Positions 20,102 to 34,694 of a DNA stretch of 64,000 bases are shown one piece after another. Positions within the stretch are counted from its first letter, which is position 1, and every line of letters begins with the position of its first letter. The position numbers were made by a program, and so were the translations under genes. The stretch is from Treponema sp. (lineage in GTDB: Bacteria; Spirochaetota; Spirochaetia; Treponematales; Treponemataceae), in contig JAGAZO010000019.1 of the NCBI GenBank assembly GCA_017940005.1, positions 1 through 64,000 on the forward strand, given 5' to 3'. Under the pieces are notes generated by a model that made no database searches, was not told where the DNA came from, and saw only the letters and a program-made list of their open reading frames with translations.

Positions 20102-20140
20102 CCAACCTCGCCGAAGAGCAGCGAGGTATGGCGCTCTTCT
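20102..20140 (+). repeat. Hairpin repeat between convergent trkH and Fur-like gene, copy 1
   Basis: Contains CCTCGC/GCGAGG and GAAGAGC/GCTCTTC stems. A second copy lies at 27134-27170 with two differences in 37 bases. The position between convergent genes suggests a bidirectional terminator. Confidence 0.6.
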
Positions 20141-20163: not shown

Positions 20164-20427
20164 TCAACTAGAACGCTGCATGCGCAGTTGTGGTTCAATC
20201 GTCACATGTTGTCGTTGAATGTAGCCGAGTTCTTGGAGCGAGTTCACCATTCTGTACACTGTTGCCCGTCCAATCGAGCTGTCTGCTTTGTGCGCGCTAT
20301 AAAACAGCTCTTTTGGCGACATGCCGGGGCTTTTCAATATGAGCGCAAGCAATCGTTTGCGTTGAACTGTTATGCGCATTCCATTTTTTTTGAATGAAGC
20401 GAGTATTTCTTTAAATGTTTGTTCCAT
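20164..20427 (-). CDS. Fur-like winged-helix protein lacking the metal-binding domain
   Basis: 87 residues from ATG 20427. It matches only the N-terminal DNA-binding half of Fur-family repressors: LASFKKNGMRITVQRKRLLA, MSPKELFYSAHK and the recognition helix region SIGRATVYRMVNSLQELGYI. The usual family length is 130-150 residues. The C-terminal dimerisation domain with its His-rich metal site is absent, and no continuation is visible in other frames beyond the stop. An upstream extension to 20460 has no ribosome-binding site. It is divergent from the ABC/TonB operon, with a 40-bp palindrome between them. It may regulate that operon, be a partner of another regulator, or be a decaying gene. 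Confidence 0.75.
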   Translation of the reverse strand: MEQTFKEILASFKKNGMRITVQRKRLLALILKSPGMSPKELFYSAHKADSSIGRATVYRMVNSLQELGYIQRQHVTIEPQLRMQRSS

Positions 20428-20754: not shown

Positions 20755-22524
20755 ATGATGATTGACAAGCGGCTGGTAAACGCTGTGCCGCATGTAAAAA
20801 AATATGTTTTTGCAACAGTGCTTGTGCGCACCTGTGCGCTTTTTGCAAATATAGTGCTGATTTTTGCTGTGGCGCATATAGTGCGCACGCGCGGCAACCG
20901 CTGGCAGATTCCTGCACTCGTGATTGTGCTGTCACTTGCTGTGCGCATTGCCTGCGACATTGCCGCGTCATATGCAAGCTATCGAGCTTCGAGTGGTGTA
21001 AAGCGCACGTTGCGCTGTCGCATCTATCAAAAGTTGTTGCGGCTTGGCACAGGCTACCAAGAGCAAACGACGACGGCAAAAGTCGTGCAGCTTGCAGTAG
21101 AAGGCGTGGAGCAGCTTGAAACATGGTTCAGTTCGTTTTTGCCGCAGTTTTACTACAGCGTGATTGCCGCTGTTGCAACATTTGTCGTGCTTGCGTTTTT
21201 GAACATGCGCATGGCGCTCATTTTGCTTGCGTGTGTGCCGCTCATTCCCATTTCAATGATGATTGTGCAGCGCATTGCAAAACGTTTGCTCGGCAAGTAT
21301 TGGGCGCAGTACGCTTCCCTCGCGGGCAATTTTTTGGAAAACTTGCAAGGCTTGACGACATTGCAAATATATAAAGCTGACGAGTACAAAGCTCGTCAGA
21401 TGGCACAGGAAGCAGAGCGTTTCCGCACAGTAACGATGAAAGTGCTTTCTATGCAACTCAATTCAATCATCGTGATGGATATTGTTGCGTTTGGCGGTGC
21501 GGGGCTTGGCATTGCAGTGGCACTTGCATCATTTTATGCAGCCGCGCTCTCGCTCGACCATGCGTTCATTTGCATTTTGCTTTCTGCGGATTTTTTTATT
21601 CCATTGCGTGCGCTCGGCAGCGCATTCCACACAGCGATGAACGGCATCACTGCAAGCAAAAATATTTTTGCGTTGCTCGACACAAAAGAGCGTGAATGCG
21701 GAACTCTCGCTGTTCCCGCTCTACAGCATGGCGTGCCGATTTACAAGGCGCACAAACTCGGCTATCAATTTGACCGTGTTGTGTTGCACGACTGCACTAT
21801 CGAGATTGCAGAAGGGAGCTATGCCGCATTTGTTGGAAAAAGTGGCAGCGGCAAAAGCACTGCGGCAAAAGTGCTCGCGGGGATATGTGCGTCATACAGC
21901 GGTTCAGTGCGTGTGAATGGTGTAGAGCTTGCGGACATTGCGCCGTCATCGCTGTATGAATATACGACGTACATCAGTCATCGTGATTGGATTTTTGCAG
22001 GCACCGTGCGCGACTGTCTGTGCGAAGGAAATGCCAATGCGCGTGATGATGAGCTGTGGCATGCGCTAGAATCTGTGAGGCTCGCATCGTTTTTGCGTGA
22101 GCGCGACGGACTTGACACGCACATTCAAGAAGGCGGCGCAAATTTTTCTGGCGGGCAAAAGCAACGGCTTTCGATTGCGCGCGCACTGCTCCGAAACAGC
22201 AGCGTGTACATCTTTGACGAGGCGACGAGCAACATAGACGTTGAAAGCGAGCAGGCAATTTTAGCGTTGTTGCATGAGCTTAAAGGCAAAAAGACAATCA
22301 TCATGATAAGTCATCGCGCAGAAAATTGTGCAGGTGCAGATGTCGTCTATTACTTTGAAAATGGCGCAGTGCGCAAAGAAACTGCCGCAACTGTTTGCCG
22401 TGTTGAAAGCGAGCGTGCCAGAGGCAAAACGTGCACCGCAACTGTTGAAAGCGTGCGCATACGTGGCGAGATGTGCGATGCGCTCGCTTCCCGTACTACG
22501 CACCTGGCGGGAGGTGCACAATGA
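20755..22524 (+). CDS. ABC half-transporter, exporter fold (first of a pair)
   Basis: 589 residues: a six-helix membrane domain (about 1-310) fused to an ATPase. Motifs: Walker A GKSGSGKSTAAK, signature FSGGQKQRLSIARALL, Walker B SVYIFDEATSNID and switch His in ISHRAE. A Cys/Arg-rich tail of about 45 residues follows the ATPase. Such half-transporters work as heterodimers, here with the next gene (ATGA overlap). Because the pair leads an operon ending in exbB-exbD-tonB beside a TonB-dependent receptor, I infer import of an iron complex in the manner of YbtPQ or IrtAB, rather than export. A CydDC-like role is the main alternative. Confidence 0.85.
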   Translation: MMIDKRLVNAVPHVKKYVFATVLVRTCALFANIVLIFAVAHIVRTRGNRWQIPALVIVLSLAVRIACDIAASYASYRASSGVKRTLRCRIYQKLLRLGTGYQEQTTTAKVVQLAVEGVEQLETWFSSFLPQFYYSVIAAVATFVVLAFLNMRMALILLACVPLIPISMMIVQRIAKRLLGKYWAQYASLAGNFLENLQGLTTLQIYKADEYKARQMAQEAERFRTVTMKVLSMQLNSIIVMDIVAFGGAGLGIAVALASFYAAALSLDHAFICILLSADFFIPLRALGSAFHTAMNGITASKNIFALLDTKERECGTLAVPALQHGVPIYKAHKLGYQFDRVVLHDCTIEIAEGSYAAFVGKSGSGKSTAAKVLAGICASYSGSVRVNGVELADIAPSSLYEYTTYISHRDWIFAGTVRDCLCEGNANARDDELWHALESVRLASFLRERDGLDTHIQEGGANFSGGQKQRLSIARALLRNSSVYIFDEATSNIDVESEQAILALLHELKGKKTIIMISHRAENCAGADVVYYFENGAVRKETAATVCRVESERARGKTCTATVESVRIRGEMCDALASRTTHLAGGAQ

Positions 22525-24233
22525 AAACATTGTTGCGATTGTCAAAATTGATTGCACCGCTTTTTCCCATAATGGCGCTTGCTGTCATATTCGGTACGAC
22601 AGGATTTTTTTGTGCCATTGGCATTCCGTTGCTCGGCGCGTTTGCGCTTACACAGCATGTACCGCTTACGCTGCTTGTACTTGCAGGCGTTTTGCGCGGC
22701 GTGCTGCATTATGCCGAGCAGTATTGCAATCACTTTATTGCATTTACGCTGCTTGCACAGATTCGCAACATTGTGTTCGCAAAACTGCGCGCGCTTGGTC
22801 CTGCAAAACTTGAAGGCAGACAAAAAGGCGCGCTCATTTCGCTCATCACGTCTGACATTGAACTGCTCGAACTGTTTTATGCGCATACTGTTTCTCCTGT
22901 GTGTATCGCATTTCTTGTGAACGCGGCGATGACCACGCTTCTTTGGATACAGCACAGCGCGCTCGGAATTGCCGCGCTCGTGTTTTATACAGTAGTGGGA
23001 ACATGTATTCCGCTTGTCGTGCAAAAGCGCGCGCTCAAAGCGGGAGCCGTGTACCGTATGCAATTTGCCACGATGAATGCGTTCTTGCTCGACACACTGC
23101 GCGGGTTGCAGCAGAGCATTTTGTATAAAACGGGCGAAAAAAAATTGCGCGCGCTTGAAGAAAAAAGTGATGCGCTTTCTGCGAGCAAAAAATCTCTTGC
23201 GCTGCATGAGGGATGTACTGCCGCGCTCATCGACTGTTGCGTGATTTTTGCTTCTGTTGTTATGCTTGCGCTTTCGCTTGTTTTATATCGTAATGGCGCG
23301 ATTGATTTTGGAACAGTTGTTTTTTCAGTGACTGCGATGTTCAGCTCGTTTGGTCCAGTGATTGCGGTGGCGCGGCTTGGAAACAGCCTTTCGCAAACAG
23401 TTGCAGCAGGTGCGCGCGTGCTCGCGTTGCTTGACGAATCGCCTGTCGTTGCAGAAGTGACAGATGGCATTGCCATAGACAGAGCGCATTTCAGTGGCGC
23501 ACGATTGCAGTCTGTGACGTTTGCATATGAGCATGGCGCAGAAAAAAAGTATTCGTGTATGCAACGAACAGCGAGCAATGCGCAAGGTGCTGCTCTGTCT
23601 GCAACTGCTGCGCAACAGCCTGACAGAGAAAATGTTGTGACCAACATCTCTCTTGATTTTCCTGTCAATAAAATTACAGGCATACAGGGAAAGAGCGGCA
23701 GCGGCAAATCAACATTGTTAAAATTGCTCATGTACTTTTGGCGCGTGGACAGCGGCACGATACATGTAAGCGGCAATGAAATCAGCACAATAACTACGTC
23801 ATCGCTGCGTGAAGCAGAAAGTTACGTAACGCAGGAGACAGTGCTCTTTCACGACACAATAGAAAACAACATGCGCATTGCAAAGCTCGATGCAACAGAC
23901 GATGAGATTGTCGAAGCGTGCAAAAAAGCAAGCGTTCACGAATTTATCATGTCGTTGCCGCAAGGGTACCAAACACATGTTGCAGAACTCGGCGACAATT
24001 TTTCAGGTGGCGAGCGGCAGCGGCTTGGACTTGCGCGCGCATTTTTGCACGATGGTGATTTGCTGTTGCTTGACGAACCGACAAGCAATCTCGACTTATA
24101 TAACGAGCACATCATCCTTGATTCAGTGCGCACGGCAGCGCAGCAAAAAGCAGTCGTGCTCGTGTCGCATCGCGAATCGACGCTTTTGATTGCAGATTTT
24201 GTATACAAGCTTGAAGTAGCGAGGCAATCATGA
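22521..24233 (+). CDS. ABC half-transporter, exporter fold (second of a pair)
   Basis: 570 residues from ATG 22521, overlapping the first half-transporter by 4 bp. Six membrane helices (about 1-300) and an ATPase with GKSGSGKSTLLK, FSGGERQRLGLARAFL, LLLLDEPTSNLD and VSHRES. A Lys/Ser/Gln-rich insert (about 350-380) lies between the membrane part and Walker A. It should dimerise with the upstream product to give two complete ATP sites. Its stop overlaps the start of the ybaN-like gene (ATGA), so the operon is tightly coupled. Confidence 0.85.
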   Translation: MKTLLRLSKLIAPLFPIMALAVIFGTTGFFCAIGIPLLGAFALTQHVPLTLLVLAGVLRGVLHYAEQYCNHFIAFTLLAQIRNIVFAKLRALGPAKLEGRQKGALISLITSDIELLELFYAHTVSPVCIAFLVNAAMTTLLWIQHSALGIAALVFYTVVGTCIPLVVQKRALKAGAVYRMQFATMNAFLLDTLRGLQQSILYKTGEKKLRALEEKSDALSASKKSLALHEGCTAALIDCCVIFASVVMLALSLVLYRNGAIDFGTVVFSVTAMFSSFGPVIAVARLGNSLSQTVAAGARVLALLDESPVVAEVTDGIAIDRAHFSGARLQSVTFAYEHGAEKKYSCMQRTASNAQGAALSATAAQQPDRENVVTNISLDFPVNKITGIQGKSGSGKSTLLKLLMYFWRVDSGTIHVSGNEISTITTSSLREAESYVTQETVLFHDTIENNMRIAKLDATDDEIVEACKKASVHEFIMSLPQGYQTHVAELGDNFSGGERQRLGLARAFLHDGDLLLLDEPTSNLDLYNEHIILDSVRTAAQQKAVVLVSHRESTLLIADFVYKLEVARQS

Positions 24234-24694
24234 AAATCACTAAACCGCTGTGGATTGGAATAGGTTTTATTGCGCTGGGACTTGGTGCGCTCGGCGTGCC
24301 GCTTCCCGTTTTACCGACGACGCCGTTTTTGCTGCTTGCAGCATTTTGTTTTGCAAAAGGTTCAGACCGCCTTAACAATTGGTTTCGCGCGACAAAATTG
24401 TATAAACGTCATCTGGAAAGCTTTGTGCAGAACCGTGCAATGACGCTCAAAACAAAATTGAGCATATTGATTCCTGCGACAATTATGCTTGTGTTTGCGT
24501 TTGTCGGAATGAGTCGCAAAGATACCGTTGGCACGCGAATAGGCAGAGCAGTTATCCTCGTTTTGATTGCGCTCAAGTACATGTATTTTTTTACCAAAAT
24601 CAAAACGATACGACAAAACGAAGCGCAAACTGCCATGAAAAACATAGCGCAGAGTGAACAAGTGAATGACGCACATGAGGAAGCGCGTGCGTAG
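24230..24694 (+). CDS. YbaN/DUF454 family inner-membrane protein
   Basis: 154 residues with membrane helices at about 5-40 and 80-125. The family signature is clear: GIGFIALGLGALGVPLPVLP, TTPFLLLAAFCFAKGS and FKDxRAMTLKTK-like NRAMTLKTKLSI. The molecular function of DUF454 is not established; in several bacteria it is next to haem or iron genes. Its overlap with both neighbours and its place in this operon support a role in the uptake system or its regulation by iron. Confidence 0.85.
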   Translation: MKITKPLWIGIGFIALGLGALGVPLPVLPTTPFLLLAAFCFAKGSDRLNNWFRATKLYKRHLESFVQNRAMTLKTKLSILIPATIMLVFAFVGMSRKDTVGTRIGRAVILVLIALKYMYFFTKIKTIRQNEAQTAMKNIAQSEQVNDAHEEARA

Positions 24695-25070
24695 TCAAGC
24701 TGCTGAAAAAAAGCGTATGCAAGAATACCGCACGGTGCTTTTGATGATACAGCTTTATTGCAAAGACAAACACGGCAGAAAAACGGCGTTGCGTTCTGCC
24801 AAAGAATTATGCAGCGAATGCAGTGCGCTTGCTGCATATGTGCGCGAACGAGAAGCGCATTGTCCATTCATGGAGGCAAAGACATTTTGCAGCTTGTGCA
24901 AAGTACATTGCTACAGAAACGATATGCGCGAGAAAATCAAAAACGTAATGCGCTATTCAGGTCCACGCATGTTGCTCTATTGTCCGATAACTGCAATTCG
25001 CCATCTTGTTTTGACGGTAAAAGCAAAGCACACGTTGCACAGGAGATTGCTTGCGCAAGTTCAACGGTAA
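24666..25070 (+). CDS. YgbA-like (nitrous-oxide-stimulated promoter family) protein
   Basis: Up to 134 residues; ATG 24666 and ATG 24675 are both possible and both overlap the preceding gene in another frame. It matches the YgbA family (PF11756) by the cysteine pattern CSEC...CPFMEAKTFCSLCKVHCYRNDMREKI followed by VMRYSGPRMLLYCPITAIRHL. It is cytosolic, with six or more conserved Cys that could bind metal or an Fe-S cluster. YgbA in enterobacteria responds to nitric oxide and iron. Its place in an uptake operon suggests a link to iron or nitrosative stress here. Confidence 0.85.
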   Translation: MTHMRKRVRSQAAEKKRMQEYRTVLLMIQLYCKDKHGRKTALRSAKELCSECSALAAYVREREAHCPFMEAKTFCSLCKVHCYRNDMREKIKNVMRYSGPRMLLYCPITAIRHLVLTVKAKHTLHRRLLAQVQR

Positions 25071-25147
25071 CAATCATGTCTGCTTAAAAGCTGTGCGTTT
25101 TTGCATGGAAATGTGTCGTAGTAATCGCGTTGTGTACAGGAGAAAAA

Positions 25148-25768
25148 ATGAAACTGATTAAATTTATTAATTTAGGCGGACCGCTCAACTGGCTGCTTAC
25201 AGCAATACTATGCTTTTGTTTTTGTCAATGTCTTGAACGGGGCATCTATTTTTTTCAAACGCGCAAAGGCTCAAAAGGAGATGTGCTCAAACGGCTGCAA
25301 ACAAAAGCGATGAAGCTTGCCGCACTGACAGAAACGCAACGTCGCAAGGAGATGGAAAAAGAAACAGCGCTTTTATACTATGAGATGAACCGTGGATTGT
25401 GGCTGCTCAATTTTATCAGCGCGGTCTCTCCGTCGATAGGATTGCTCGGCACTGTTACAGGACTTATCGGCTCGTTTTCAAAAATGGCAGAAGTGGGCGC
25501 GGCCGTGAATATTCAAGATTTGTCTGGCGGCATTTGGGAGGCCATGCTCACTACCGCGTTTGGCATGATAATATCAATTCCCGCACTGTTGTGCTACCGC
25601 ACATTTAAACGAATAATCGAAAAGCGAATGATGACGATGGGCTTGTATGGCGACGAGTGCCAAAGCATTGTGACAGGAACGCACGATGCTGAGCGTTGTG
25701 ACGCTTCATCATGTACATGGGAAGAAACGGGTTGCAGTGCTTTGCCATGCCAGCAGGGAGCATTGTGA
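25148..25768 (+). CDS. exbB: ExbB/TolQ-family proton channel subunit
   Basis: 206 residues from ATG 25148 (AGGAG site). Three membrane helices: about 10-28 after FINLGGPLNWLL, then LLNFISAVSPSIGLLGTVTGLIGSF and GIWEAMLTTAFGMIISIPALLCY, the MotA/TolQ/ExbB signature. With ExbD it uses the proton gradient to energise TonB. The C-terminal tail after residue 165 is Cys-rich. It overlaps exbD by one base of the stop (TGATG) and follows the YgbA-like gene by 77 bp, so it may also have its own promoter. Confidence 0.92.
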   Translation: MKLIKFINLGGPLNWLLTAILCFCFCQCLERGIYFFQTRKGSKGDVLKRLQTKAMKLAALTETQRRKEMEKETALLYYEMNRGLWLLNFISAVSPSIGLLGTVTGLIGSFSKMAEVGAAVNIQDLSGGIWEAMLTTAFGMIISIPALLCYRTFKRIIEKRMMTMGLYGDECQSIVTGTHDAERCDASSCTWEETGCSALPCQQGAL

Positions 25769-26172
25769 TGTACTATCAAGATTTTTTGCATCATCACGAA
25801 GAAGAGCTTGTTGTAAACATCACGTCGCTCATCGATGTTATTTTTATCCTGCTTATTTTTTTTATGGTGTCAACACAGTTTAAACGAAGCTCACTGCCAC
25901 TTGATTTGCCGCAAAGCGAAGACACGACGCAGGAGCATAATGCAACAAAAGTGCTCGCCGTTTCTGCTGATGCCATAGAATTGAATGGAGCTGTTGTTGC
26001 ACTCGACTCGTTGCAGGATGAGCTTGCCATGCTGTACGCGCGTGAGCCAGAACTTGCGCTTTCTCTCGAATGCGAGCGCACTGTTGCATTTGAGCGCGTT
26101 GTGCAAATATTGACAAAAATTCAAGCGGCAGGAATCAGTCGCATAGGAATTGTGCATGAGCCGTTGGAATGA
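25768..26172 (+). CDS. exbD: ExbD/TolR-family protein
   Basis: 134 residues from ATG 25768. A short cytosolic start, a single helix with the essential Asp (NITSLIDVIFILLIFFMVST), then a periplasmic domain of about 95 residues with PQSEDTT and the final segment GISRIGIVHEPLE. It forms the ExbB-ExbD proton channel. An in-frame extension upstream lies within exbB and is not used, given the overlapping TGATG arrangement. Confidence 0.93.
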   Translation: MYYQDFLHHHEEELVVNITSLIDVIFILLIFFMVSTQFKRSSLPLDLPQSEDTTQEHNATKVLAVSADAIELNGAVVALDSLQDELAMLYAREPELALSLECERTVAFERVVQILTKIQAAGISRIGIVHEPLE

Positions 26173-26809
26173 TTCGCGCACGCGCTGGCTGCTGTCTGCG
26201 CTCGGTACAACGGCGTTTGTTGCGTTGTTGCTTTGTTTGCCCGTCTGGAGCGTGAGAAACGCATCTTCAACAGTCGCATCAATTACGCCAGACACAACAA
26301 TATCTACAGTCACTGTGATACGGCACGCGCGCAAGCAGACGCCGCCAATCATGAAACAACAAATTGTTCCTGTGCCGCTGTTGCGGCATGCAGAAGCGAT
26401 TCCGTCTCCGCAAGAAGAAATCGTTGAGCACGTAGACGAGCTGCCCGCTGACACTGATGACAAAAGCGCAGCAATAAGCGATGCGAGCAACACAAACGAT
26501 ATGCTTTTTCCTGCAAACGATGCAAAGGCGAGCGCGACATACAAATCATATGTGCTCGGGCGCATCGCTTCAAAAAAAACATATCCATATGCGGCGCGCT
26601 CAAAAGGTCTTGAAGGCAAAGTGCGCGTGCACCTCGTCATTAATCCTGACGGAACAGTTGCCCATGCAGACGTGATTGAGCCGTCTGAATACGCGTTGCT
26701 CAACGATGCATGCCTTGCTGCAATTCAAAAAGCAGCTCCATTTAAAAAAATGACTGGCGGCATGAGCGCAATGACTATTTCATTTGTCATGGATTTTTCA
26801 TTGCGGTAA
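26156..26809 (+). CDS. tonB: TonB protein
   Basis: 217 residues from ATG 26156 (AGGA eight bases before), overlapping the exbD end in another frame. One N-terminal helix (about 10-28), a Pro/Lys/Glu-containing spacer, then the TonB C-terminal domain: KTYPYAARSKGLEGKVRVH, INPDGTVAHADVIEPS and LLNDACLAAIQKAAPF. It passes energy to outer-membrane receptors. The spacer has few Pro-Lys repeats. It is last in the operon that starts at 20755, and a TonB-dependent receptor follows 770 bp downstream. Confidence 0.93.
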   Translation: MSRWNDSRTRWLLSALGTTAFVALLLCLPVWSVRNASSTVASITPDTTISTVTVIRHARKQTPPIMKQQIVPVPLLRHAEAIPSPQEEIVEHVDELPADTDDKSAAISDASNTNDMLFPANDAKASATYKSYVLGRIASKKTYPYAARSKGLEGKVRVHLVINPDGTVAHADVIEPSEYALLNDACLAAIQKAAPFKKMTGGMSAMTISFVMDFSLR

Positions 26810-26942
26810 CGTGCTGTCCTTGCGCAAGAAGCGATAGCCATGCGACGAGTTGGGATTACAACAAGTGATAGCAGGGCAAAGGCGCGGCGGTGCAACATCA
26901 GTCCACACGGTATCACACCACGCAGCATTTTAGGCGCAGCTT

Positions 26943-27107
26943 TTACGGCAGCAAGAACATTGCCAGGTAATACGGCACAGTAGTTTTGTCGCTCGCAATG
27001 CTGATGTTATTTGCAGACAACTTGCAGCGCTTTTGCACTTCGTACTGTGGATTTTTGAGCACGGTAATGGCAGATTTTGTGTTGCCTGTAGTCGCCTTTA
27101 CTGCAAT
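26943..27107 (-). pseudogene. Possible C-terminal remnant of an unknown gene
   Basis: A 54-codon open stretch with no start codon, reading SAITVLKNPQYEVQK and SDKTTVPYYLAMFLLP before TAA. Composition is protein-like (few rare codons, hydrophobic end) but there is no family match I can name. It may be chance. Confidence 0.25.
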
Positions 27108-27133
27108 TTAGCGGATTTGTCAGCGGTTAATCC

Positions 27134-27170
27134 CCAACCTCGCCGCAGAGCAGCGAGGTATGGCGTTCTT
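27134..27170 (+). repeat. Hairpin repeat, copy 2
   Basis: Differs from 20102-20138 at two positions. It keeps the CCTCGC/GCGAGG stem. Confidence 0.6.
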
Positions 27171-27271
27171 TAAAATGCAACAGCGAGCAAAACATCAGTT
27201 TCGGGAGTTGTTGCGTTGGTGCACGTGAGCGCGCATGTACGTGCGCGCTAGTTCAGTGCCACTCACATGTC

Positions 27272-27329
27272 GTCACGCGAGCGACGAGTTAAATAATTTC
27301 TTCACAGTTTGTATCACGAAGTGATACAT
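27272..27329 (-). repeat. 58-bp intergenic repeat, copy B (inverted)
   Basis: Reverse complement of the element at 12019-12076 with about seven substitutions. The palindrome is GTATCACGAAGTGATAC; the change in its loop keeps the stem. Confidence 0.8.
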
Positions 27330-27519
27330 GAAACCTTTCACACAAATCACATGTTTCTAACAGTTTTTAAAAAATAGTGTACTTTTCGACAATTACACTG
27401 TGAAATGTATCATCTAATGAATGTGCATCAAATCTTCGCCATCTTTATCGTGATTTTTTCTCAATAAAGCATGTTTTTATTGTAAAAATATAATAATGTT
27501 GATACTGTATGCGCAATAG

Positions 27520-27533
27520 TTAGCTATAGCTAA
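27520..27533. promoter_or_regulatory. Operator-like dyad upstream of TonB-dependent receptor
   Basis: Perfect palindrome TTAGCTATAGCTAA. TTGATA at 27499-27504 is a plausible -35, which would put the dyad over the -10 region, 49 bp before the TTG start. Confidence 0.7.
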
Positions 27534-27581
27534 TTTTATAAATCGATTGTCAGTGCCAAAATTTTCAAGGACAAGTGTGTT

Positions 27582-29612
27582 TTGAAAAAGTATATCTTAT
27601 TGTGCTTTCTTTGTTTCTCGCTGCAATTTCTGTTTTCACAAGAAGCGGAAGATGATGTCATAGTCGTAAACGCAGAAAAAATTGAGCAATCTATCGATAC
27701 AGCTGTTGAGCAGAGAAAAACAATTTCCACCGAAGAGATGCGAAAATCAGGCGCAAAGACGGTGGGCGACGCCTTAAAAGCGCTTCCTGATGTTACCGTG
27801 AGCACTGCCACCGCGGGAAATGGCAACGAATCTGTCACCATACAGGGACTTGGCAACGGGTACGTAAAAATCATGATTGATGGCATCACTGTCTCGACAG
27901 ACATATCAGGTTCAACGCCCATATTTCAAATTCCTGTGGAAAGCATTGACCATATTGAAGTTATCAAAGGCGCAGACTCCGTGCTGTATGGAAGCGATGC
28001 GATGGGCGGCGTTATCAACATTGTGACAAAGCGAGCGCCTTCAAATGCGGACGAAAGCGAAGAGGAATCTGAAGAAAAACGCAAGGTGAAAGTAGCTGGT
28101 GGCGTTACAGAAGAATTCGGATTTTCGCCCGTGATAATCGGTTGGAAAAATTACGCGGCAACAAATCTTTTTGTCTCTGGCAAGCATATTTCAAATGCGC
28201 TCACGGGAAGTTTCGATTATAATCCCGGCAAAAAGAAAACGATAAACGACGCGCTCGCAGGAAAAATCATTTACTACGAAAGCACAAAAAAGATTTTGGG
28301 ATTTGTACGCAACACATTTGCATGGAATGCTGATTGGGGAAGCGTGGACGTATACGGGCTGTACACCGTCTCGTATCAAGTGAGCAATTACACAAAGACA
28401 GGATACGACAAAGGCTCCGACATGACATACGCTTCACACAGAGGCGAGCTAGGCGTTACGGGAAAATACATCCACAGCGAAAAATTATACATCGACAGCT
28501 TTGTAGCGGGAAAGCTCTATTTTCTGAACACATCGTACAACGTTAAGGCGGGAGTGTATTCTTCCTCAAAAGTAACGCGCTCGAATTCTTTTGACATTGA
28601 AACAGATGCACGCGCGTACTGGAAGCCGAACAAAATCAATGATTGCACGATTGGCGTAAACATAAATCTTGAATCGATGAGCGGCACATCGTTTGAAAAA
28701 AGAAAGCACGCGCTTGAAACAGCGCTTTTTGCGCAAGATGCAATTTCGCTTTTTGATGCAAAACTCACGCTTGTTCCCGGCATACGACTTGATTTTTCAC
28801 CGCCTATTCAAGAGAGCGCTGTCATTTTTATGGCGACACCAAAGCTTGGCATAAAATATACTCCCACAGAAAAAACTGCGCTCAGATTCAGCTACGGCAT
28901 GGGCTATAAAATCCCCTCGCTCAAAGAAAAGTACTGGATTTTCCGACATAACTACGCACCCGGCGCAGGCAATTTTATTTTGTACGGAAATCCTAATCTT
29001 GTGCCTGAAAAATCGCACAACTTTACGCTTGGCGTTGAGCAAAACGTGGCAAATCTTTTTACGTTTTCCGTCGGCGGATATTTCAATTACATACTCGATT
29101 TGATTGACGGCGTTGTTACCGACGCAACATCTTCCCCGCAAATACGCGAATATCAAAACGTAGACAAAGCAATCACATACGGTGGCGATTTTTCAATGGG
29201 CACAGAACTTGACAGATTCAAGGCAAAAATCGGCTACGCATATACAGGCGCAAAATTTTTTGATGCGCCTTCTTCGCAGTGGAAAAATCTTGCATTGCGT
29301 GTTGCCCACAGAGTTACAGCGAGCGCGGAATATCGCATTCCAGTGATTGAAACGACAATTGCGGTGAGCGTTCAGTGGAATTCTCCGCAGCTTTTAAATG
29401 CGCAAACTGCATATTACACGCCTGACTATTTTATGACCGGTTGTGATATTTCAAAAAAATTTTTTGAAGATACGTTTGCTGTCTATGTTGGTGTAGACAA
29501 CATGCTCAACAATTTGCACTTCATCAAGGGAACAAACGGAGAGATGCAAAAAAATTATTACGGGCTTAACGATGGCATAACGCTACGAGTTGGCGCCAAA
29601 TACAATTTTTAA
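27582..29612 (+). CDS. TonB-dependent outer-membrane receptor
   Basis: 676 residues. Signal peptide MKKYILLCFLCFSLQFLFSQ, then EDDVIVVNAEKIEQ as a TonB box region, a plug domain (about 40-150) with KTVGDALKALPDVTVS, IQGLGNGYVKIMIDGI, SIDHIEVIKGADSVLYGSDA and GGVINIVTK, and a 22-strand-type barrel ending in Phe (ITLRVGAKYNF). The start is TTG 27582 behind AAGGA. It binds an iron complex, haem or a vitamin at the surface and passes it through with TonB energy. The ligand is unknown; context favours iron or haem. Confidence 0.93.
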   Translation: MKKYILLCFLCFSLQFLFSQEAEDDVIVVNAEKIEQSIDTAVEQRKTISTEEMRKSGAKTVGDALKALPDVTVSTATAGNGNESVTIQGLGNGYVKIMIDGITVSTDISGSTPIFQIPVESIDHIEVIKGADSVLYGSDAMGGVINIVTKRAPSNADESEEESEEKRKVKVAGGVTEEFGFSPVIIGWKNYAATNLFVSGKHISNALTGSFDYNPGKKKTINDALAGKIIYYESTKKILGFVRNTFAWNADWGSVDVYGLYTVSYQVSNYTKTGYDKGSDMTYASHRGELGVTGKYIHSEKLYIDSFVAGKLYFLNTSYNVKAGVYSSSKVTRSNSFDIETDARAYWKPNKINDCTIGVNINLESMSGTSFEKRKHALETALFAQDAISLFDAKLTLVPGIRLDFSPPIQESAVIFMATPKLGIKYTPTEKTALRFSYGMGYKIPSLKEKYWIFRHNYAPGAGNFILYGNPNLVPEKSHNFTLGVEQNVANLFTFSVGGYFNYILDLIDGVVTDATSSPQIREYQNVDKAITYGGDFSMGTELDRFKAKIGYAYTGAKFFDAPSSQWKNLALRVAHRVTASAEYRIPVIETTIAVSVQWNSPQLLNAQTAYYTPDYFMTGCDISKKFFEDTFAVYVGVDNMLNNLHFIKGTNGEMQKNYYGLNDGITLRVGAKYNF

Positions 29613-29661
29613 TCGAGTGCCGCAGCTTGCCAGCAGGCGCGGCATTTATCAAGGAGGTTAT

Positions 29662-30645
29662 ATGAAAAAATGTTACATAACATATGCTTTAGCTGTGACA
29701 GCGATTGCGTTGCTGTTCATCTCTTGTGCAGGTACGAGCAATGAAAGTCTTGCAGATTACGACATCGCTAAAATCTACGGCTATACGTATTATGGGAACA
29801 TTACTGCTTCAAGCGGGAATACGCTCATTCCATCATTGATTGTATACAACGACAATCGATGTGACTGGAATATGAACGTAACTGGAATGAACAATAATCA
29901 GTTCTATTACTATGCTACCCAAAATTCAGCGAGCAACTACACACTGTATTGGTTCAGCGCGGCAGACCATGCATCTGCAATCGCTAAAGATGCTTCAAAA
30001 GCTGCAATGGTTGTGCAAGTTGGCATAAATAGTTTGGATGAAATTGTCATTCTGCTCACTGGTGACAAACTCACTGGCATTAGCGCAATGGCAAATACGC
30101 GCGTGCCCATGAAAAAGCAGGCTAATATTCCGCGCAACACAACACCTACAGAAATAGATTACAACGCGAGCATTAAAGACATAATGATTGAGCGTCCTGA
30201 AGGCGCATCGAGAGCTGCATGGGGTGGGAATGATTCGTACAACGGAAGTTTTGTGTATCTTGTTGGAGAAATGCAAAAAGGTAAAGGTTCATGTGGAACT
30301 GATGCAGATGGAAATATGATTACACCTGTAGTCAAGGTTGCAGATACAAGTGCTACAACAGCAAACACAGTGCAGCTTACGATGTATCGCTTTGCATTTT
30401 CAAAGGAAATGACAATTAAAAGTTTTGATATCCCTAATGTTGAAGTGTATAAGGACGGAGCTACATACTACTTGCATCTTGATGCAACATCGTCTATTCA
30501 GGCAGAGACACTAGATAAAACAATCACGTTAAAGGATTTGACTGTAGACGGAAAGCTTGATGAAAAAGGCATGCTCACGTTGCGTGTTTCTTTCAAACCG
30601 GGAAAAATGCCGTTCCCGATTATTGAAATATTCACAAGCACTTGA
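29662..30645 (+). CDS. Lipoprotein with calycin-like C-terminal domain
   Basis: 327 residues from ATG 29662 behind a strong AAGGAGG. Lipobox ALLFISC. The C-terminal part (about 205-327) resembles the Bacteroidetes-type calycin-like domain: SFDIPNVEVYKDGATYYLHL, TLKDLTVDGKLDEKGML and the ending RVSFKPGKMPFPIIEIF. The same pattern recurs in the next gene. Following the receptor by only 49 bp, it is probably co-expressed and could bind the receptor's ligand at the surface. That role is inference. Confidence 0.7.
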   Translation: MKKCYITYALAVTAIALLFISCAGTSNESLADYDIAKIYGYTYYGNITASSGNTLIPSLIVYNDNRCDWNMNVTGMNNNQFYYYATQNSASNYTLYWFSAADHASAIAKDASKAAMVVQVGINSLDEIVILLTGDKLTGISAMANTRVPMKKQANIPRNTTPTEIDYNASIKDIMIERPEGASRAAWGGNDSYNGSFVYLVGEMQKGKGSCGTDADGNMITPVVKVADTSATTANTVQLTMYRFAFSKEMTIKSFDIPNVEVYKDGATYYLHLDATSSIQAETLDKTITLKDLTVDGKLDEKGMLTLRVSFKPGKMPFPIIEIFTST

Positions 30646-30737
30646 TTGCGTCTATTGCACAGTAGACAAACTATACTGTTACCGTGCAATAAAAATAAAA
30701 AATGCTTCACAGAAGCAAAAAATATGTGGAGGTTTTT

Positions 30738-32054
30738 ATGAGAAAACTATTTTTAGGTATGATAGGGACGCTCATCTTTTTGGGTGTGCTCTCTTGTACG
30801 AATAGCACTATAGATAGCGCAAAAAATGCTTCAACGACAGCGGATGTTGTCGCAGGTGAGTACTACACGGATGAATCGTATAGCGTAGCAGGTGTCGAGG
30901 GTAAAAATGCAGGCGTAAAGCTTGTCATTAAAAAAACAGCTGATGACACAGTTTCTATAACTATACCTGGCTTTTCGTACAGCAGCTCAATGACGATCAA
31001 TACTTTTGACATCACTAATGTAGTTGTTTCAACTGTTGATAATGAAAACTATGTTTTTGCATTGGGCGAATTTACTTCAAGAGCTGTATTCAAGGAAGCG
31101 GGAAAAGACGTAAAAGACATATCTGTATCAGGAACGTTTAAAAAGTCTACAAAAACGCTCACTGTGAAAGCAGTGTATACATATGGCGCAATGCCCCTGC
31201 CGATTACTAATTCATTCAGCAATACGTTCAAGTCTACTTATCAGCTTTCTGACATTATGAAGAAATATTATACATTTGAAGCAAATAATAATTCACACCT
31301 TTTGAAACTCTTGTCTTCGTCTGAAAGCGTTTATATCATAACGGATACTGAAAAAAGTAAAATAACTGCATTATATTTTACCTATGCATGGAAAGAGATT
31401 GGAACAAATGTTTATCTACTTACTTCTTATGTGCACGCAAATCAAAATGCGACGGCTGACACAACAGGGGCTTCAACGAGAGTAGATAAAATCACTATAA
31501 AAAGTGAAAAAGAAATTTTAGTTGACACTGTATCAGCGTTCCTGTCAGAATATACAATAACAGCAAATTTGAGTTGCTTTGTCAACGCGATGGGCGGTAT
31601 AGATTTTGGCGCAGGGCAGGATGAAGGCCATCCGTCACTCCTTGTAGATGCAAGCGTTGCAATCGCTACTGACGGCAGTGTAATGCTCACTGCAAACTTC
31701 AGAAAGTCAAGCGTAATTGTTTACGGTCAGTTAGCACATACTTTTATTGATTCAACAAATTCAATACCTGGATATTATATTTCAGAAGAAGAGAAAAAGG
31801 ATGCCATATACTACACTACGAGTGCAGATACGGCAACTGATAGGAACGGCAAAGAAGTTCATTATGTTGATGCTATGTCGTTTCCTGTGAGTAAAGATAT
31901 ATCTTCCTATAACTTGTGGATTTATGTTAACTCAAATACTACGGGTCTGCAATTCTGCAACGGAAAAGGAGAAGGTACAGTAAATCAGCCGAATGTTGCC
32001 ACTTCATATGTTGGCAAAATTACGCTTAATTGGGATACCTTGTCAAAAAAATAA
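30738..32054 (+). CDS. Lipoprotein with calycin-like N-terminal domain
   Basis: 438 residues from ATG 30738 (GGAGG site). Lipobox LGVLSC. The first domain (about 35-175) has TFDITNVVVSTVDNENYVFAL, DISVSGTFKKSTKTLTVKAV and YGAMPLPITNSF, paralogous to the end of the preceding lipoprotein. The second half (about 180-438) is Ser/Thr/Asp-rich and beta-like, with no domain I recognise. It is the third gene of the receptor unit. Function unknown; a ligand-binding surface accessory is plausible. Confidence 0.68.
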   Translation: MRKLFLGMIGTLIFLGVLSCTNSTIDSAKNASTTADVVAGEYYTDESYSVAGVEGKNAGVKLVIKKTADDTVSITIPGFSYSSSMTINTFDITNVVVSTVDNENYVFALGEFTSRAVFKEAGKDVKDISVSGTFKKSTKTLTVKAVYTYGAMPLPITNSFSNTFKSTYQLSDIMKKYYTFEANNNSHLLKLLSSSESVYIITDTEKSKITALYFTYAWKEIGTNVYLLTSYVHANQNATADTTGASTRVDKITIKSEKEILVDTVSAFLSEYTITANLSCFVNAMGGIDFGAGQDEGHPSLLVDASVAIATDGSVMLTANFRKSSVIVYGQLAHTFIDSTNSIPGYYISEEEKKDAIYYTTSADTATDRNGKEVHYVDAMSFPVSKDISSYNLWIYVNSNTTGLQFCNGKGEGTVNQPNVATSYVGKITLNWDTLSKK

Positions 32055-32243: not shown

Positions 32244-34694
32244 ATGAGATTAACAGGATTTTGTATCAGTTTGGCTGTTGCTGCGTGCATTTTGCTTGCA
32301 AGCTGTCAGAATGAAGGCTTTTCTTCTGATTACAGAAACTCACAGTCAAAACAGGGATATGCGTTCTCTCTCAATTCTCAAACTGGCGGTCAACAGCTGC
32401 ACACTGGTGTTTCTGTCTTTGTGTCGTCTACTGCTGTCGTTGCCGTACGTAGTCCTGTTATTGTTACGATTACAAGTCCTCTCGCAGTAAACATTGATTC
32501 GCTTGACGCTGCGCTCAATTTTTTTCCAGTTTTTGGAGGCGATGAACACAAAGTCGCTGTGCGCGGCGAACCATTGTATAAAATCCGTACAAATGTAGTA
32601 CGCAGCATTGCAGACGAAAAATCTTCCGATACAAAAATTGTTGTCACATACGATGTAGATTTTTCGCCGCTTGAAGTGCTTAATACAGATACAGCAATAT
32701 ATGTTATCGATGCAACAGTACTTAAAAATGTTGCTGGAGCTGCAATGCTCAACGAGGACGGCGGCGACTCTGCTGGCGATGAAACAGACAGCATCATTGA
32801 CTATGCAAATGCTGTCGATGCATCTGGAACGCGATTACCGATTACGAAAGCTGACGGTACGTTGCTTGCTGCCGTTATTTCGCCTATTGAAAAATCGCAT
32901 CCTTCTCTTATTGATGAGCTTGGCACACCTGGCGCTCTTGATTTTAACGGCATGAGTTTTCAAGCTGCATTCAATATCAATACAAATAGTTATGACGGCA
33001 GGTGGAAACTGACGTTTGATAAAGTCGTAGATAGTAGTGGCAATGTGATTGTTGATTTTTCCAATACGCTTAGTAAAATCTATTCATATCAAATTTTGTT
33101 GCCTGGCGAAAAGATCTGGAGCAAGCCGCTATTTTTTGATTTCAGCTATGTGGGCAGTTCTGGCGATGATTTTGGGCATAGTGAACAGTACGTAGCGTTT
33201 ACGCAAGAAGCATTTCTCGATAAAAAGGCAGGTACAAAAATTCGTGTGTTGCGCAATTTTTCTCCAAATATTGTCAGTCCTGCGTATTTTGAGGAAAAGT
33301 TTGGAAGGCTGGGACGGTGGAGTTATGCGCAGTCAAGTTCCCGTACAGAAATAACGTCTCTTGCGCAAACTGTCGGTGTATACACAGCTGATCCGAGCTA
33401 CATCGTAAGCCGCGCATATTATGAAGCGGATTCCGATGATGCAATAGCGGCACTTTTTGAAAAAGGGTATTTACTTGAGCCTGAACGTTTGCAAGCGGCG
33501 CAGCGAAAGAGTTTTTATATTGAAGATGAGGAATTGCTTCCGCTGACATTCAAGATTATGCCGCGCGGAGAATATCGCTTTGTTGCAGATAAATGCACTG
33601 ATTTTATTGTTACTGACAGTAACAATAAACTGTTCTCTTCAAGAATAGCACTTATTGTCGAGGATACTGAACCGTATGTGCGTATTTCGCTTGCAGGAAG
33701 CAGTTTCCCGAATAACGTAAAAGATGTTAAGCTGTGGGTTGGCAAAAAAACGAGCATTACTGACGGGCGTACAGTAAAGTCATTTGGCACATATGATGAC
33801 AATGCGCATGGTGATGCGTCGGGCTATGTTGAACTTCCCATTCCTGTGCCGCTTCGTGTAAATACATGTGCAGTATACGCAAGCGACAGCGTGCAACCGC
33901 TTGCTGTGTTGCATAATGTTGACGTGCATACACTTTTATATCATAGAGATGTTGTTGCATTACTTGACGCGGTAAAGCAGCGGTTTACTGGTGGGCATGT
34001 CGCTATTACACTTGATCATATTGAGCAGCAGAATAAAACAAAATGCGTTGGTAACGAATGTACGACAGATGAAATGCACTTGTATCTCAAAGAACATACA
34101 GATGATGTCATGCCTGTTTGCAATGTTACTGTGCGCGTTACCACAAGTGACGGACATCTTTTAACAACAGTGCACGATGTCGCTGTCCATCGCTATTATA
34201 ATCGTGTTATTGAAAATAATGATGATGTTGCCTTGTTGCATGCTGTAACAGTTGCACTTGAACCATTGTCTATAGCAGATTTGCAAGGGCAAGCAGTTAT
34301 TGAAGATTTTGCCGATATGAAAGCGGAATCGTTTGAAAAACATGCAACAGTTGATTTTACACTCAATAAACGATTAGCCGCTATTGAAAGTATACAGAAT
34401 ATAACAATTACCGGTATTGCTATAGAGAGTTCCGATGGGCAGGTAATCGGTATGCTCGATTCGCCTGTTGAACTGCATAGTCCGCTTATTGCAGAGGATT
34501 TCACGGTGCTTTTAAATGCCGTTGCACAGCAACTTAATCTTGCTGAAACCGACATACACATTGCAGCATTTAGACAGGACAATAGCATGCTCCATGTATT
34601 TGCCACGTTGCTGGATAATACGGGGGGGGGGTACTCGTTATTACTCGATGAGACTGCCGAAGAATGTGGTTTTCAACTGAAGAAGAATGAATAG
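32244..34694 (+). CDS. Large lipoprotein of unknown function with a G9 tract
   Basis: 816 residues, lipobox ILLASC at about residue 20. No domain is recognised. The protein appears to be mostly beta-strand, with repeated ITITGIAIESSDG and VTVRVTTSDGHLL type strands that suggest Ig-like or similar exported modules. There is no ribosome-binding site, and a perfect -10 lies six bases before the ATG. A run of nine G at 34622-34630 encodes GGG about 22 codons before the stop; slippage there would change or shorten the C terminus. Confidence 0.7.
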   Translation: MRLTGFCISLAVAACILLASCQNEGFSSDYRNSQSKQGYAFSLNSQTGGQQLHTGVSVFVSSTAVVAVRSPVIVTITSPLAVNIDSLDAALNFFPVFGGDEHKVAVRGEPLYKIRTNVVRSIADEKSSDTKIVVTYDVDFSPLEVLNTDTAIYVIDATVLKNVAGAAMLNEDGGDSAGDETDSIIDYANAVDASGTRLPITKADGTLLAAVISPIEKSHPSLIDELGTPGALDFNGMSFQAAFNINTNSYDGRWKLTFDKVVDSSGNVIVDFSNTLSKIYSYQILLPGEKIWSKPLFFDFSYVGSSGDDFGHSEQYVAFTQEAFLDKKAGTKIRVLRNFSPNIVSPAYFEEKFGRLGRWSYAQSSSRTEITSLAQTVGVYTADPSYIVSRAYYEADSDDAIAALFEKGYLLEPERLQAAQRKSFYIEDEELLPLTFKIMPRGEYRFVADKCTDFIVTDSNNKLFSSRIALIVEDTEPYVRISLAGSSFPNNVKDVKLWVGKKTSITDGRTVKSFGTYDDNAHGDASGYVELPIPVPLRVNTCAVYASDSVQPLAVLHNVDVHTLLYHRDVVALLDAVKQRFTGGHVAITLDHIEQQNKTKCVGNECTTDEMHLYLKEHTDDVMPVCNVTVRVTTSDGHLLTTVHDVAVHRYYNRVIENNDDVALLHAVTVALEPLSIADLQGQAVIEDFADMKAESFEKHATVDFTLNKRLAAIESIQNITITGIAIESSDGQVIGMLDSPVELHSPLIAEDFTVLLNAVAQQLNLAETDIHIAAFRQDNSMLHVFATLLDNTGGGYSLLLDETAEECGFQLKKNE

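Follow-up and report, generated by a model that had tools for sequence, protein, structure and literature searches.

A TonB-dependent receptor locus of Treponema sp. with a CydDC-related pair of ABC half-transporters: a possible iron-regulated haem acquisition system

Introduction

Few exporter-fold ABC transporters are known as importers, and recognition of such proteins has centred on YbtPQ and IrtAB. The treponeme locus described here resembles them: it encodes two half-transporters of the exporter fold, lies in a setting of iron uptake and lacks a gene for a binding protein. In contrast to them, its pair belongs to another branch of the exporter fold (only YbtPQ was part of our tree), and no siderophore genes were seen at the locus.

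TonB-dependent haem uptake of the Hmu/Hem type (hmuTRUV-hmuW) likewise relies on TonB-ExbBD and a haem-type receptor, whereas HmuT, HmuU, HmuV and HmuW have no counterparts at the treponeme locus. For the streptococcal sia/hts operon (shr-shp-siaABC-siaDE-siaFGH), PMC6593403 lists siaD and siaE among the genes for putative ABC transporters. Clostridial relatives of the treponeme pair show a similar succession of NEAT, Shp, SBP, FecCD and ATPase genes followed by two ABC half-transporters, which is a likeness of gene order only, and one treponeme locus (G129) adds an ECF importer, like siaFGH. Unlike sia/hts, the treponeme locus uses TonB and calycin-like lipoproteins.

Lmo1131-Lmo1132 of Listeria monocytogenes belongs to the same clade as the treponeme pair; it has an upstream Fur box and is iron-regulated, as the treponeme pair probably is, although Listeria possesses neither an outer membrane nor TonB. 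The genes lmo1131-1132 are under Fur control (PMC4481299), and haem represses them along with uptake genes (PMC6305404); published mutant work on them deals with adhesion and invasion (PMC5736727). CydDC, the haem/thiol ABC exporter of E. coli with a defined axial haem ligand site (PMC13337084, PMC10374445), is also a heterodimer of unlike halves.

The best reading of the locus is a new version of TonB-dependent haem uptake, in which the novelty is a CydDC-type clade as the inner-membrane part. If this is true, import by the exporter fold would have an origin separate from YbtPQ, and an iron-controlled CydDC branch that kept the haem ligands while the propionate-recruiting arginine was replaced would provide a way to ask what sets the direction of transport. 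A function would be offered for a widespread pair usually annotated as 'CydD-like', which is Lmo1131-1132 in the case of Listeria, and for YbaN and YgbA, the orphan proteins accompanying it, and the iron supply would be described for treponemes whose TonB system serves a single receptor.

Results and Discussion

Gene content and arrangement of the locus

The window is the whole stretch of 64,000 nucleotides of a Treponema sp. contig (JAGAZO010000019.1) that was analysed. All ten genes listed for the locus in the earlier note are open frames in the place and order described there, and Pfam agrees for each family (Table 1). From ABC1 to TonB (20755-26809), adjoining genes overlap or are at most 78 nt apart. 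A gap of 772 nt separates TonB from the receptor gene, which has its own promoter and is closely followed by the two lipoprotein genes. The statement that the locus encodes neither a binding protein nor a BtuCD-type permease was confirmed, as open reading frames and Pfam matches revealed none between 20 and 32 kb of the window; one true FecCD permease is encoded in the genome outside the locus (G000:C7). The assertion that TonB systems are uncommon in treponemes does not hold in the sample examined. TonB was found in 13 of its 27 other genomes of the same genus and receptor plugs in 61 of 118 genomes of the family, so that the reasoning built on its rarity was wrong.

Table 1. Features of the locus and its regulatory region (coordinates refer to the whole window)
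Feature	Position	Strand	Remarks
mini-Fur, divergent from ABC1	20164..20427	-	87 aa; PF01475, positions 1-65 of 121 only
Exact iron-box-like palindrome TTAGTATATGCTAA	20544..20557	.	ABC1/mini-Fur intergenic region, upstream of ABC1
Composite promoter element before ABC1, CAATAA ... TTAGCATGGGCAAA	20647..20705	+	one of two whole-genome matches
ABC1	20755..22524	+	589 aa; exporter-fold half-transporter, CydD side; Pfam ABC_membrane/ABC_tran
ABC1 His292	codon at 21628	+	at the aligned position of haem ligand CydD H312
ABC2	22521..24233	+	570 aa from ATG; half-transporter, CydC side; Pfam ABC_membrane/ABC_tran
ABC2 Gln	codon at 22719	+	aligns with CydC R81
ABC2 His	codon at 22731	+	at the aligned position of CydC H85
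ABC2 His	codon at 22884	+	aligns with CydC R136
YbaN (DUF454), inner-membrane protein	24230..24694	+	PF04304, 114 bits
YgbA (YgbA_NO), small Cys-rich protein	24666..25070	+	PF11756, 132 bits
ExbB (MotA_ExbB)	25148..25768	+	PF01618
ExbD	25768..26172	+	PF02472
TonB (TonB_C)	26156..26809	+	PF03544; sole TonB of the genome
Composite promoter element before receptor, CAATAA ... TTAGCTATAGCTAA	27462..27533	+	other of two whole-genome matches
TonB-dependent receptor, haem-receptor-like	27582..29612	+	Plug and barrel; sole receptor (1 Plug) in the genome
Receptor His456	codon at 28947	+	flanked by a FRAP-like and an NPNL-like box
Lip1, lipoprotein, C-terminal calycin-like domain	29662..30645	+	LLFISC lipobox; PF13944, 34.5 bits
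Lip2, lipoprotein, N-terminal calycin-like domain	30738..32054	+	PF13944, 39.6 bits

Some further features of the genome were noted. Directly 3' of Lip2, a predicted lipoprotein of 816 aa without a Pfam match is encoded (32244-34694), and near-identical terminator-like hairpins, CCTCGCCG(A/C)AGAGCAGCGAGG, follow TrkH (20106-20126) and TonB (27138-27158). The only true FecCD gene adjoins a NifH-like gene, two NifD/K-like genes and two genes for Peripla_BP_2 proteins (L202, G000:C7, 1208-9808), a set that reads as a nitrogenase-like reductase and a BtuCD-type importer. A second exporter-fold ABC pair forms one operon with a Trep_Strep ECF importer (S, T, A; L110, G000:C16, 8269-14595).

Relationship of ABC1-ABC2 to CydDC

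In a tree of 51 half-transporter sequences, in which YbtP and YbtQ represented the exporter-fold importers, ABC1 and its orthologues formed a separate clade that is sister to CydD (support 100/99), and ABC2 and its orthologues a separate clade that is sister to CydC (support 97/92). YbtP and YbtQ fall elsewhere in this tree, by which a kinship of the pair to YbtPQ is ruled out. The earlier note had likened the pair to YbtPQ and IrtAB and had named grouping with CydDC as an outcome that would speak against its reading; grouping with CydDC is what the tree gave. The likeness was therefore dropped as kinship, but as a way of working it may still hold. CydD is also the closest solved bacterial half-transporter to ABC1 among the matches listed, and the best NCBIfam models are CydD for ABC1 (354 bits) and CydC for ABC2 (260 bits), both below the equivalog cut-offs (435 and 329, respectively).

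Both axial haem ligands of CydDC are kept, as His occupies the positions of CydD H312 and CydC H85 in 18 of 18 pairs each. In seven other exporter-fold sequences serving as control, His was present at the first site in one and at the second site in four, so that only the H312 site is fairly specific; His at the H85 position also occurs in YbtP, in YbtQ and in an unrelated pair of the same genome. The rest of the pocket differs from CydDC. Four of the six haem-pocket residues scored in PMC13337084 are lost across the clade (R81Q, T88A, H132V/L and F247L), and the position of CydC R136 is always His in the 18 pairs, as that of R81 is always Gln. Further differences are the iron regulon, the TonB locus and the missing link to cytochrome bd: no CydA (PF01654) match was obtained in the genome, and CydA occurs in only 6 of 118 genomes of the family. 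Since the genome lacks cytochrome bd, the pair is not an ordinary CydDC, a candidate that was rejected on this ground and because of the replaced residues. Judged from the conserved residues, haem or a haem-like molecule is the natural guess for the ligand.

Orthologues outside the treponemes and the role of YbaN and YgbA

Clostridial orthologues of ABC1 share 45-52% identical amino acids with it, and the Listeria proteins Lmo1131 and Lmo1132 show identities of 39% and 38%, respectively. Haem or FecCD genes (Shp/NEAT/FecCD haem operons) were found in 7 of the 72 clostridial loci, most clearly in the order NEAT/FIVAR/LPXTG protein, Shp, SBP, FecCD, ATPase, DtxR, ABC1, ABC2, YbaN (L133). Four loci have ECF S-T-A genes next to the pair, and many have no haem genes nearby. 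In Fusobacterium vincentii, the gene after the orthologous pair is flavodoxin-like (L205, 12620-13129) and thereby reminiscent of HmuF/FldH in the haem system of fusobacteria.

YbaN is encoded near ABC1 in 30 and YgbA in 22 of the 72 clostridial loci; at least one of them lies close to ABC1 in 41. Because both accompany the pair in Clostridia, which have no outer membrane, they belong to the ABC module and not to the receptor, and would act as accessories of the pair. A metal or redox protein is the probable identity of YgbA, which possesses many invariant Cys residues; its AF2 model is all-helical (pLDDT 87); no solved fold was matched by this model in a structure search.

Receptor and calycin-like lipoproteins

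The top NCBIfam subfamily of the receptor is TIGR01785 (haem/haemoglobin; 154 bits, cut-off 316.85), and its scores remain below every family cut-off, those of the haem families included. The protein exhibits the motif YKIPSLKEKYW...H456...GNPNL, the His of which is invariant in 11 of 11 orthologues. A FRAP-like box, an NPNL-like box and a His between them are also the arrangement of known haem receptors.

Lip1 is encoded after the receptor in all treponeme loci with a receptor of the same type, and relatives of Lip2 follow Lip1 in seven loci (L073, L078, L080, L120, L121, L255 and L258). The AlphaFold model of Lip1 showed a weak likeness to lipocalin and TbpB barrels and no significant match in the PDB, and is too poor (pLDDT 56) for interpretation. 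Concerning haem degradation, HutW/ChuW gave no match over the cut-off in this genome or in any of 145 genomes, a result that is uninformative because generic HemW-like matches swamp the search.

Promoter elements and iron box

A composite promoter element with TTAG-N6-CTAA as its core has exactly two matches in the whole genome (2.4 Mb), at the promoters of the ABC operon and of the receptor gene. As the pattern was derived from these sites, it necessarily matches them; what is informative is its absence elsewhere in the genome. The reversed pattern, used as control, gave four chance matches. In the sister genome (G212, L255), the composite element occurs again at both the ABC operon and the receptor gene.

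In nine of nine treponeme loci, TTAG-N6-CTAA is located 21-62 nt before the receptor gene (background 18 exact sites per 635 kb), and another element, ending with CAATAA, lies upstream of this box. A second conserved inverted repeat, TTATTGA-N9-TCAATAA, was observed about 40-70 nt before the TTAG box at receptor genes (e.g. L074, L076 and L080) and at ABC1 in L069. As a test of the spacing on 18 treponeme sites used chosen sites, the clostridial set provides the fair test. There, 37 of 68 loci have the box at a distance of no more than 300 nt from ABC1, in comparison to 38 of 690 other genes (p 1e-23), and a spacing other than 6 was found in one of the 68 loci only (N10). Other clostridial genes with this box encode FeoB, NEAT proteins (haem receptors), a Peripla_BP_2 lipoprotein (SBP) and a DtxR-type repressor. 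Judged from these genes, TTAG-N6-CTAA is most likely an iron box; it resembles half of the DtxR/IdeR consensus. For lmo1131, PMC4481299 prints a Fur box, and this sequence is located 177 nt before ABC1 of the Listeria locus (L204). Both the box and the Fur control published for the Listeria member speak for iron regulation of the treponeme locus.

The mini-Fur protein consists of the winged helix only, with neither a metal-binding nor a dimerisation domain. Similarly short relatives (63-90% identity) are encoded beside the same operons in four loci (L076, L080, L255 and L258), and the protein is a candidate for a local regulator.

Conservation in treponemes

The order ABC1-ABC2-YbaN-YgbA-ExbB-ExbD-TonB-receptor-Lip1 is kept in G036 (L070), where Lip2 is missing, and recurs without YgbA in the sister genome G212 (L255). 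This repetition is more than chance. In five genomes (G028, G044, G084, G098 and G211), YgbA-ABC1-ABC2(-YbaN) is divergent from ExbB-ExbD-TonB-receptor-Lip1; the simple gene caller missed or masked a few genes, such as YbaN in G098. The ABC and receptor parts lie apart in G024 and G145, the receptor and lipoprotein genes precede the ABC operon in two uncultured relatives (L120 and L121), and an ECF importer (Trep_Strep-type S, T, A) is inserted between TonB and the receptor in G129. From these variable arrangements, two modules can be distinguished, namely ABC1-ABC2 with YgbA/YbaN, and ExbBD-TonB-receptor-Lip1. Genus g2 is rich in ECF S components of the Trep_Strep family, with as many as 11 in one genome.

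The pair is present in 11 of 11 genomes with a close receptor orthologue (at least 49% identity). The co-occurrence check suggested in the earlier note was run among 145 genomes of the family and came out in its favour in one direction, since the pair was found in 15 of 17 genomes with a receptor homologue (Fisher p 9e-11, a value inflated by kinship), but not in the other, as 14 of 29 genomes with the pair have no receptor homologue. The pair, the TonB system, the receptor and the lipoproteins can thus be regarded as one functional unit, an idea upheld by the co-occurrence with close orthologues and the shared promoter element, whereas 'complete', as the uptake system had been called, is too strong for a pair that so often occurs without a receptor. 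Genomes of the latter kind include genus g2 (inferred to be T. denticola-like), and in many cases their pairs adjoin or coexist with a BtuCD-type importer of haem. Conversely, a search of G036, which has the full locus, revealed neither a true FecCD nor a Trep_Strep ECF gene, so that the pair is the only candidate found there for the inner-membrane partner.

Proposed function and alternatives

We give slightly less than an even chance to the locus serving iron-regulated acquisition of haem (iron-tetrapyrrole), with the pair carrying haem into the cytoplasm. Under iron limitation, Lip1 and Lip2 would gather haem or haem proteins on the cell surface and present them to the receptor, which, powered by ExbB-ExbD-TonB, would bring haem into the periplasm. 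From the periplasm or the outer leaflet, the ABC1-ABC2 heterodimer would take haem via a His-lined lateral pocket into the cytoplasm, and no binding protein would be needed. The steps of the lipoproteins and of the receptor with TonB are taken from knowledge of these families. For haem import by the pair, which is put at a little under one half, we infer the direction from G036, in which neither a true FecCD nor a Trep_Strep ECF gene was found, from a promoter logic that would co-induce pair and receptor, and from the uptake-like Listeria member. Held more tentatively is the wider proposal that this CydDC-derived clade, which occurs in Spirochaetota, Bacillota and Fusobacteriota and carries the iron box, might be a haem importer independent of binding proteins, joined in treponemes to TonB, a haem receptor and calycin-like lipoproteins as a self-contained two-membrane uptake system.

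The nearest characterised relative argues against import, since CydDC, to which the pair is sister in the tree, is counted among the haem exporters. The haem reading is also weakened by the four replaced pocket residues, by the low specificity of His at the H85 position and by receptor scores under the haem cut-offs. Alternatively, the pair could be an exporter within the same iron regulon, removing haem, porphyrin or a linear tetrapyrrole that remains once the iron has been extracted; haem itself would then enter via a FecCD or ECF importer. We consider this less likely than import but a serious rival, and several observations point to it. BtuCD-type haem importers occur alongside the pair both in clostridial operons and in genomes of the T. 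denticola type (hmu locus, PMC10404700). A full SBP-FecCD-ATPase importer adjoins it in the seven clostridial loci and ECF S-T-A genes in the four mentioned above, an ECF importer does so in G129, and the genome studied here has its own FecCD (G000:C7). Moreover, anaerobilin was described as cytotoxic (PMC10404700). Against export stand G036 with neither of these importers, the place of the pair at the head of the TonB-ExbBD operon in the present genome, and the regulation, as known haem exporters are induced by haem whereas the Listeria member is haem-repressed (PMC6305404).

Import of another iron complex, such as a xenosiderophore or a small iron chelate, in the manner of YbtPQ would agree with the many clostridial loci without nearby haem genes, with the receptor scores under all family cut-offs and with the iron box at other exporter-fold pairs (L135 and L179). 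It is nevertheless improbable, as the tree excludes YbtPQ, the axial His residues are kept, seven clostridial loci lie inside Shp/NEAT/FecCD haem operons, and the receptor has a conserved His and haem/haemoglobin as its best subfamily. Scarcely credible is a genuine CydDC that exports haem or thiols for the assembly of cytochrome bd and is located beside the TonB genes by accident. Its best support, the CydD and CydC models as top NCBIfam matches, is countered by scores under both equivalog cut-offs, by the rarity of CydA in the family and its absence from the genome, by the separate clade with residues of its own, and by the promoter element shared with the receptor.

Beside the reading as a haem acquisition locus, two observations concern the surroundings of related pairs. 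Methyltransferase-like genes occur near the ABC pair in three loci (L164, 716-1393; L185, 7084-7713; L119, 9140-9964), and two of these genes have iron boxes. In L261 (G189), six TTAG-N6-CTAA sites were found within 17 kb. They precede YbaN, two exporter-fold pairs that differ from each other, and further genes, which suggests a larger iron island.
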